A DNA stretch of 40,716 nucleotides from Armatimonadota bacterium (lineage in GTDB: Bacteria > Armatimonadota > UBA5829), in NCBI GenBank assembly GCA_029907315.1, contig JARYME010000018.1, positions 1-40,716 of the forward strand, written 5' to 3'. The translations under genes were made by a program, and so were the position numbers. This document shows positions 38,580 through 40,716 of the stretch, in pieces. Below the pieces are notes generated by a model that did no database searches, was not told the origin of the DNA, and saw only the letters and a program-made list of their open reading frames with translations. Position 1 is the first letter of the stretch, and each line of letters begins with the position of its first letter.

Positions 38580-39290
38580 GTGAACAGAATGCGCAGGGGT
38601 TTTACCCTCATCGAGCTTTTGGTTGTGATTGCAATCATAGCAATACTTGCCGCTCTCCTGTTCCCTGTGTATTCTTCGACCAAGGCAAAAGCTCTTCAGA
38701 GCTCGTGTTCGTCGAACATAAAGCAGATTGTAATGGCGCTAATTCGCTACGCAGACGACTGGAACGGCACGCTCCCTGGCCTTAACGCATTTGGTGACTT
38801 AGTCGATGCCAGCAATACCAAACCAAACAGAGGGCCTCTCTGGCAATACGTGAAGTCCCAAGAAGTATTCCAGTGCCCGGCACAGATATGGAAGCGAAAT
38901 CCCACCAATTCTCTCGCGCCGCATAAGTTTAATTATACCTACACAATGAACGGTTACATGACGATTGCCGAAAGAGACCGCGGGCTAGCAGACTATGTTG
39001 GAGAAAAGGTGAGTAAGTCCAGAAACCCGTCTCAAACTATCCTTTTGGTCGACGAGAACTGCGACGAGACAAAGAATGAAGGACAGTACGTAGTAAACGA
39101 TGCGCTGTTCATATGGGAAGACCGCACAGGCGATCGGCATCCCGGCTCAGAACACGTAACCACGATCAACGGCGCACGCTATCTTTGCAGCGGCAGTGCG
39201 CCGGTGGGATATCTTGACGGTCATAACAGCGTCGTCCCTGGACTCATAAAGTGGCAAAGCCCTGAGGGGAAAGCCCTTTTTTACAAATAA
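38580..39290 (+). CDS. Prepilin-type N-terminal cleavage/methylation protein
   Basis: This 236-residue protein has the prepilin signal GFTLIELL at residues 6-13, then [17 protein letters not shown]. It has Cys residues at the usual places and a late VGYLDGHNS segment comparable to the DG motif of its relatives. GTG 38580 is chosen because GGGGTGAT lies just upstream and it places the basic residues directly before the signal. The ATG at 38499 would lie inside the promoter. It is a paralogue of the proteins at 12348 and 22639 with a shorter globular domain. Confidence 0.9.
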
Positions 39291-39339: not shown

Positions 39340-39416
39340 TGGTAGCGGAGGTCGGGCTCGAACCGACGACGCCCCGGGTATGAGCCGGGTCCTCTAACCA
39401 GCTGAGGTACTCCGCC
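39340..39416 (-). tRNA. tRNA-Met(CAT), elongator type
   Basis: This 77-nt cloverleaf has acceptor GGCGGAG/CTCCGCT with a G1-U72 pair, D stem CCTC/GAGG, anticodon stem CCCGG/CCGGG with loop CTCATAC (anticodon CAT), T stem GTCGG/CCGAC with loop TTCGAGC, and encoded CCA. The paired end and the anticodon stem exclude an initiator. A lysidine-modified Ile tRNA also has CAT, but the G1-U72 end is more like bacterial elongator Met tRNAs. Seven T residues follow directly. Confidence 0.95.
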
Positions 39417-39472: not shown

Positions 39473-40030
39473 CTACCTGCGTCTTTGTTTCTCCTCACCG
39501 TTGGCATCCTTGTCGTCGTGGTGAAAAACGGGCAGGTAATCACGCCACACTTCGTTCTGAGCACTTGCAACGAACTTCGTAAGGCTTATGAAAGGCACGT
39601 ACGTGGGTTTTCGCGGCTTTTGGCGAAGACGGAACCCTGCCTCCTCCAAAGTCTTGTCCCCTTTTAGATTGTTGCATTTCTTGCAGCAGCAAACGAGGTT
39701 GTCCCATGTGGTTGGGCCGCCTAGCCGTTTCGGCACGACGTGGTCGACGGTCAAATCCGGCCCGACATAACCGCAGTACTGGCACGTGTAATTGTCTCTA
39801 GCAAGTATGCTACGCCTCGACAGACGCAACTGAGGTCTCGGCCGCTTGACGTGGTTTCTCAACCTGATCACCGATGGCGAACGGAAGGACTTAGATACTG
39901 TATGTACGACTACCGAATCCTCGTGCAAGACATCTACCTTACCGAGGATGACCAGGTTAATCGCCCGTCTGAGTGTGCATATGTTCAGCGGTTCGTAATC
40001 GCTATTCAAAACAAGAACTTCGTGCGCCAC
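39473..40030 (-). CDS. HNH endonuclease
   Basis: The 185-residue form starting at GTG 40030 (AAGGGG 10 bases upstream) has an N-terminal strand-rich region, VLVLNSDYEPLNICTLRRA. The HNH domain follows: CQYCG, TVDHVVPKRLGG, WDNLVCCCKKCNNLKGDKT, with a four-Cys zinc site and the catalytic Asp-His. The tail is basic. Stand-alone proteins of this shape are widespread in bacteria and cut or nick DNA; a specific role is not known. An upstream extension of the frame (to 40129) overlaps the preceding terminator and the 44-aa gene and is probably not translated. It lies 56 bases after that small gene, behind its terminator, so it needs read-through or its own start. Confidence 0.9.
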   Translation of the reverse strand: MAHEVLVLNSDYEPLNICTLRRAINLVILGKVDVLHEDSVVVHTVSKSFRSPSVIRLRNHVKRPRPQLRLSRRSILARDNYTCQYCGYVGPDLTVDHVVPKRLGGPTTWDNLVCCCKKCNNLKGDKTLEEAGFRLRQKPRKPTYVPFISLTKFVASAQNEVWRDYLPVFHHDDKDANGEEKQRRR

Positions 40031-40051
40031 TTGGCTGCAACCCCTTCTAAC

Positions 40052-40088
40052 AAAAAAACCCACTACGACGCGTGCGTCGCAGTGGGTT
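40052..40088 (-). terminator. Terminator of the 44-aa gene, directly upstream of the HNH gene
   Basis: The stem AACCCACT/AGTGGGTT (40088-40081 with 40064-40057) is extended by CGACG/CGTCG, and a run of seven T residues ends near 40052. It overlaps the stop codon of the small gene and lies 21 bases before the HNH start, so it could also act as an attenuator. Confidence 0.9.
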
Positions 40089-40221
40089 ACGTTGCAAACT
40101 GCACATGGAACAGGTGTTGTCGGACACACGCGCCGTCTTCAAGCATGCGCAGACTGCGTGCGATGGCACCTGCCCAATAACCGAGATTCTCGTCCTGATG
40201 GGTGATGAATGAATTCAGCAT
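40087..40221 (-). CDS. Small 44-residue protein, unknown
   Basis: ATG 40221 to TAA 40087 encodes 44 residues: polar N-terminus (MLNSFITHQDENLGYWAG), a central amphipathic helix with basic and aromatic residues, and an end with two Cys and several His. I do not recognise a family. The case for a real gene is its setting. TTGACA-17-TACAAT lies 41 bases upstream, and a perfect terminator begins within its stop codon. A weak AGG precedes the ATG by about 9 bases. It sits between an IS256 end and the HNH gene. The same transcript could instead be a structured RNA. Confidence 0.55.
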   Translation of the reverse strand: MLNSFITHQDENLGYWAGAIARSLRMLEDGACVRQHLFHVQFAT

Positions 40222-40261
40222 GTTCGGTGCCTATGCAAAATGCTCAAAAAACTCTAATGTC

Positions 40262-40290
40262 ATTGTAGCAGCCCAATTAGATACTGTCAA
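40262..40290 (-). promoter_or_regulatory. Near-perfect sigma-70 promoter of the 44-aa gene
   Basis: On the minus strand TTGACA (40290-40285) and TACAAT (40267-40262) are exactly 17 bases apart, the strongest promoter match in the window. It lies just outside the IS256-family end. Confidence 0.8.
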
Positions 40291-40312
40291 TACAGACTAA
40301 TCCTGGGTAGTG

Positions 40313-40716
40313 TCAAGCCTTGTGTGTAAATTGCTTTGGCCGGTAGGCCTCATCCCACTGTTTGTTCTGATGTGTAAGCACTGAATAGAGCATGCGATCC
40401 ACGCTCCGGCGATTGGTGAAGCACGATATTGTCCGGATTCGCCTGCGCACCTCTCTGAAGACTCTTTCTATCGGGTTGGTTGTGCGCATCGTCCTCTGGA
40501 ATCGCTCGGGCACGAAGAAGAACTCCAGCAGCTCTTCTATGTCGGCTTCAAGGCAAGCAACTGCCTTTGGCTCCACGCCGATCCACTTGTCCCGCCAGGT
40601 CCGGAACCTCTTGACCGCTTCTGTACGGTTAGGAGCCAGATAGATCAGCCTGGCACCATTCAGACACGCCTCTTGGTTACACTTCTTGACCTTGTTGGCT
40701 ATGTTCCGCAGCTTAT
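40313..40716 (-). mobile_element. IS256-family (Mutator-type) transposase, C-terminal part
   Basis: The frame is open from the right edge to TGA 40313, 133 codons. Diagnostic segments are KLRNIANKVKKCNQEACL, TEAVKRFRTWRDKW, MRTTNPIERVFREVRRRIR and a final YRPKQFTHK. These belong to the helical end of an IS256 DDE transposase and include its final Glu region. The N-terminal part lies outside the window. The stop overlaps the outermost part of the element, with a terminal repeat probably reading GGGTAGTGTCAAGCC (40304-40318). Copies of this family create 8-9 bp target duplications, which cannot be checked here. Confidence 0.92.

Follow-up and report, generated by a model that had tools for sequence, protein, structure and literature searches.

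The DNA analyzed here, referred to as the window, is the whole 40,716-nt stretch of contig JARYME010000018.1 from an Armatimonadota bacterium, and all coordinates are positions in it. On its minus strand, the end of an IS256-type transposase gene is followed by a promoter, a 44-codon open reading frame (the leader ORF), a terminator and a gene coding for an HNH endonuclease-like protein:

40714–40313, minus strand: 3' end of the IS256-type transposase gene, upstream of the promoter (NF033543, E 6.9e-24)
40262–40290, minus strand: promoter TTGACA-17-TACAAT, agreeing with the consensus at 11 of 12 positions
40087–40221, minus strand: leader ORF of 44 codons, MLNSFITHQDENLGYWAGAIARSLRMLEDGACVRQHLFHVQFAT (ORF list and translation; coding test against the same-genus genome G002)
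40114–40170, minus strand: conserved peptide core GAIARSLRMLEDGACVRQH, residues 18–36 (alignments and codon-level selection)
40057–40088, minus strand: intrinsic terminator stem-loop, the proposed attenuator, with 14 pairs and a 4-nt loop, at the same position in relatives
40041–40048, minus strand: probable ribosome-binding site of the HNH gene, AGAAGGGG (read from the sequence; conserved in G002)
39473–40030, minus strand: HNH endonuclease-like gene with a GTG start at 40030, the proposed regulated gene (Pfam PF01844, E 4.5e-14)

The promoter boxes (TTGACA at 40290–40285 and TACAAT at 40267–40262, separated by a 17-nt spacer), the strong terminator at the ORF stop and the adjoining IS end are all present where the first-pass annotation had placed them. 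The stop codon of the leader ORF overlaps the terminator stem by 2 nt, and the stem is followed by a T-run (TTTTTGTTAG) extending to about 40052. The annotation had also described promoter, ORF and terminator as a self-contained unit. This does not hold: the GTG of the HNH gene lies 26 nt past the end of the stem, and the same layout is kept across the class. Since the T-run and the ribosome-binding site are only about 3 nt apart, a second promoter serving the HNH gene alone would not fit after the terminator in the window. No clear Shine-Dalgarno sequence was found ahead of the leader ORF in the window.

The leader promoter lies outside the IS, as judged from four further partial copies of the element elsewhere in this genome: their match to the window stops at 40306 in three cases and at 40303 in one. 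Approximately 15–16 nt ahead of the leader promoter, the window (40303–40716) and G009, a genome of a different genus (locus L006, positions 1–112), share this IS256-type end, which could reflect either independent insertions at the same place or a target site preferred by the element. In G002 the upstream neighbor of the leader is another one, by eye an RNase P RNA-like stretch.

The HNH protein scores 52.8 bits against PF01844 (cut-off 21.4), and its PADLOC and PHROGs matches mostly cover the shared HNH domain. The gene is present in 20 of the 28 class genomes examined, and orthologs were found in 228 of the 251 sampled genomes of the phylum. A tRNA gene (CAT anticodon by eye, probably Met) comes after the HNH gene both in the window (39343–39416) and in G011, a genome of another genus (locus L003, about 2300–2353). 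The plus strand of the window carries a type II secretion/prepilin-like gene at 38583–39290, recognized by eye from its N-terminal motif.

The leader peptide and its relatives

At the DNA level, a search of 60 other genomes produced one match to the unit in each of two relatives. G002 has a 44-residue homolog in the equivalent place. Over the last 27 codons, the two sequences differ at 14 positions, distributed 4/0/10 over the three codon positions (pS 0.47, pN 0.07), and the other two frames lack such a pattern and are interrupted by stops. G011 retains AHSLRMLEDGMC. For the class leaders as a group, pN/pS is 0.42 in frame versus 0.89 and 1.57 in the other frames, and the consensus of the peptide core is SLRxLEDGxCxxQH. 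Judged by these comparisons, the leader ORF is a real coding sequence, since the differences from G002 are mostly synonymous and homologs exist. Thus, the first-pass annotation, which had proposed a small gene with its own promoter and had left it to alignment whether codons or base pairs are preserved, is borne out by codon-level selection. Its term ‘orphan’ is correct in the sense that no family for the peptide was found in Pfam, NCBIfam, PADLOC or PHROGs, but homologs do occur in G002, G011 and other families. No homologs were found in phages. Three plasmid matches (E 0.2–0.5, within unrelated genes) and the best PDB match (E 0.3) were rejected.

Profile searches extended the set of leader peptides. 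A blind profile of three rows matched 6 of 151 genomes; three of these were new, and all three new matches lie directly upstream of the HNH gene. None of the six searched class genomes lacking the HNH gene contains the leader peptide. A profile of 10 class peptides added further forward-frame members (L025, 7e-5; L026, 1.5e-4; L045, 0.002) and weaker ones (L175, 0.008; L052, 0.024; L023, 0.025), the best reverse-strand decoy being at 0.19. Iteration added L042 and L179, with the best decoy of the last round at 0.045. A profile of 12 rows was built from 12 of its own 13 strong matches, which leaves G026 as the only new one, so the blind test is the three-row profile. Six of the 19 genome matches of the 12-row profile were weak (E 7e-4 to 8e-3) and were judged to be chance; five of them do not adjoin an HNH gene, and G089 is the one without a listed HNH place. 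In all strong matches found, the leader peptide adjoins the HNH gene.

The peptide changes greatly between families, and given this change the leaders need not all be homologous. Family f43, also in Armatimonadota, has a different leader, RWSTGSWFGTRGRYR, unrelated but itself conserved (in-frame pN/pS 0.18), and the leader of family f8 is QQDRHWRHHRFGHVMR (0.10); the other frames of these two leaders give values of 0.68–2.63. A short segment conserved as amino acids with varying codons is seen in the class, f43 and f8 leaders.

Conservation of the layout upstream of HNH genes

Reading upstream of the 20 class HNH loci gave the same order every time: promoter, short ORF, terminator, HNH gene. 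To count these elements more widely we used a set of 70 loci, which is not random: it combines the 20 class loci with the 10 ranking next and with 40 more that were hand-picked across families from the phylum-wide ortholog list. By the rules used, eight of the 70 have no terminator and were left out of the ORF and promoter counts, so that 62 were used. A promoter with at least 10 of 12 consensus positions precedes the HNH gene in 20/20 class loci (1.2 expected from shuffles) and in 26 of the 42 further loci (1.1 expected). Leader ORFs ending at the terminator were counted from 28 codons upward, with the end allowed to fall from −15 to +25 relative to the first position of the terminator; 18 of the 20 class loci have one (7.9 expected; with ATG starts only, 15 versus 4.2), as do 25 of the 42 others (10.4 expected). 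The two class loci without one are L006 and L010, from the two genomes of genus g4, which belongs to the window's own family; here the frame continues through the terminator, and its end overlaps the HNH start by ATGA. All 12 f43 loci likewise have a frame that crosses into the HNH start, and in f43 and g4 the stop codon lies within the HNH gene, 4–23 nt from its beginning. Since these frames run through the terminator sequence, a ribosome translating one of them must traverse it. The spacing between terminator and HNH gene is 16–35 nt in the window's family; in the rest of the class it can be as long as 93 nt, which could accommodate another promoter.

Under one rule set, a terminator was found directly before the HNH gene in 10/13 class loci, 15/29 of loci L080–L119 and 2/19 of loci L120–L159; the ORF rule of this comparison recognized HNH genes in only 13/20, 29/40 and 19/40 of the respective loci. 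Just upstream of other ORFs, the control, a terminator was found in 1/22 (the count to set against the class), 2/24, 6/91 and 8/98 cases, and none of 235 other ORFs had terminator and promoter together. Direct listing gave a terminator before the HNH gene in 19/40 of L080–L119 and in 3 of the 36 loci of L120–L159 (mostly other phyla) in which an HNH start was found, these two sets being the best 80 among the matches listed. Because the terminator is rare in the set dominated by other phyla, the arrangement seems characteristic of Armatimonadota and not of the HNH gene wherever it occurs.

Alternative readings of the unit

The product of the leader ORF might be a small protein in its own right, such as a partner or inhibitor of the HNH protein, with the terminator only setting the ratio (much peptide, little nuclease). 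Amino-acid-level selection and the constant company of the HNH gene agree with such a protein, and a terminator between two genes would give an excess of the first product. Nevertheless, we regard this reading as unlikely. Conservation is limited to a core of about 20 residues, and the N-terminus drifts freely between two species that share 91% identity in their HNH proteins. In 20 leaders, three of which (L023, L049 and L058) were chosen by eye with weak final-iteration profile scores, the conserved Asp codon lies 42–74 nt before the terminator but 87–230 nt from the −10 box. The place of the core is more constant relative to the terminator than relative to the promoter, as expected of a cis-acting element tied to the terminator. 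Furthermore, the f43 and g4 frames run across the terminator into the HNH start, so the end of these leaders is set by DNA layout and not by a fold. AlphaFold predicted one long helix for the window peptide (mean pLDDT 90.6), but for a peptide modeled alone from a single sequence this says little and was taken as uninformative.

The first-pass annotation had offered a structured regulatory RNA as an alternative, in which the transcript would be the functional product and the ORF incidental. Strong promoter and terminator signals about 200 nt apart would suit a small RNA, and the whole 200-nt unit does fold better than shuffles (z −2.74). However, this value is due to the terminator: with it removed, the leader folds no better than shuffled sequences (z 0.22 in the window, +2.16 in G002). 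At gathering score, Rfam models matched tRNA only, and below it leader scores were at chance level, which also speaks against a riboswitch or other structured Rfam leader. The long-range helices of the annotation are present as letters, but TTGCA/TGCAA reads as the non-pairing GCACA/AGCAG in G002 (by eye). With substitutions following codons, we consider a structured RNA very improbable. Nor was a consistent antiterminator found: duplexes between leader and terminator arm are as a rule not better than shuffles (z −0.3 in the window, +2.2 in G002). In f43 (L044, L050 and L163–L172), the WSTGSW codons GGAGCACAGGCTCC show near-complementarity to GGGGAGCCTGCGC in the 5' arm of the terminator; this might be an antiterminator, but the coding constraint on these codons confounds the reading. 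In f8 (L032–L035, L038 and L160–L162), leader CGGACACG matches terminator-loop CGTGTCCG and is invariant in 8/8 loci; this match proves nothing, because nothing varies.

A chance frame between the IS end and the terminator, conceivable for a single short ORF given that 45% of shuffles of one leader (L004) give a comparable frame when GTG and TTG starts are allowed, can practically be dismissed in view of the mostly synonymous change in the G002 homolog, the homologs in other families and the persistence of the complete layout at loci lacking the IS.

A probable ribosome-mediated attenuator

We consider it probable that 40052–40290 is the leader of the HNH gene and acts as a ribosome-mediated transcription attenuator of the pyrBI kind. 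RNA polymerase would start at the strong promoter, transcribe the leader ORF and meet the terminator just before the HNH ribosome-binding site. If the last part of the leader ORF were free of ribosomes, the terminator would fold and the HNH gene would be mostly off. A ribosome close behind the polymerase at that point would place its footprint over the 5' arm of the terminator and prevent folding, and with the terminator masked transcription would continue into the HNH gene. The conserved core would be the likely sensing element, ribosome slowing or arrest there setting how often the terminator is masked. We infer that HNH mRNA would arise by read-through; on the same footing, we propose that the ribosome exerts control, in the direction given here, and that it may stall at the core in response to some signal.

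According to one report on E. coli (PMC4824070), the efficiency of a terminator falls from about 90% to under 10% once a stop codon is shifted to 5 bp ahead of it, and a spacing of more than 27 nt between stop and terminator is required for full termination. The same report describes terminators located within a coding region's first 100 bp as efficient, the exception being short leaders with polymerase pause sites, e.g. pyrBI; pyrL is the natural case cited for ribosome-suppressed termination (PMC5021804). LEDG-type leaders have their stop between −7 and +22 of the stem start, and it is because this is well inside the 27-nt range (PMC4824070, as above) that we take the unit to be a ribosome-mediated attenuator; the E. 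coli result may not carry over to these bacteria.

More tentatively, and with doubt prevailing, the leader peptides across the phylum (at least three types, SLRxLEDGxCxxQH, RWSTGSWFGTRGRYR and QQDRHWRHHRFGHVMR) could be nascent-chain sensors, each slowing or stalling the ribosome in response to some condition and thereby gating the conserved HNH nuclease gene via the terminator. If so, expression of a chromosomal nuclease would be licensed by the state of translation. Our analysis suggests that these bacteria tie HNH expression to translation. On this reading, the ‘orphan’ gene of 44 codons becomes a regulatory switch that can be tested, acting on a protein found in most sampled genomes of the phylum. 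A literature search for this leader found no report, and broader searching gave general papers only. Mechanisms of this kind are already on record; within the literature searched, neither the leader families nor the HNH target had been described.

The unit can be compared with three kinds of known leaders. The trp and his attenuators likewise place a leader peptide and a terminator ahead of the regulated gene. However, the window peptide has no run of one regulatory codon and the HNH target is not biosynthetic, which together speak against an amino-acid operon attenuator; the absence of a consistent antiterminator is a further difference.

With arrest leaders (SecM, TnaC and the Erm type), the unit shares a short upstream ORF and a short segment conserved as amino acids, nearly fixed in position relative to the RNA element that it would control. 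Stalling within the leader is here a proposal from sequence comparison, and we know of no arrest motif matched by SLRxLEDGxCxxQH.

The E. coli pyrBI leader peptide (pyrL) also has 44 residues. Its ORF reaches an intrinsic terminator ahead of the structural gene, and a closely following ribosome suppresses termination (PMC5021804, PMC4824070). The leader frames described here likewise end at the terminator (18/20 class loci) or cross it (2/20, and 12/12 in f43). They differ from pyrBI in having a core conserved as amino acids and in their target, which is an HNH nuclease gene and not pyrimidine synthesis.
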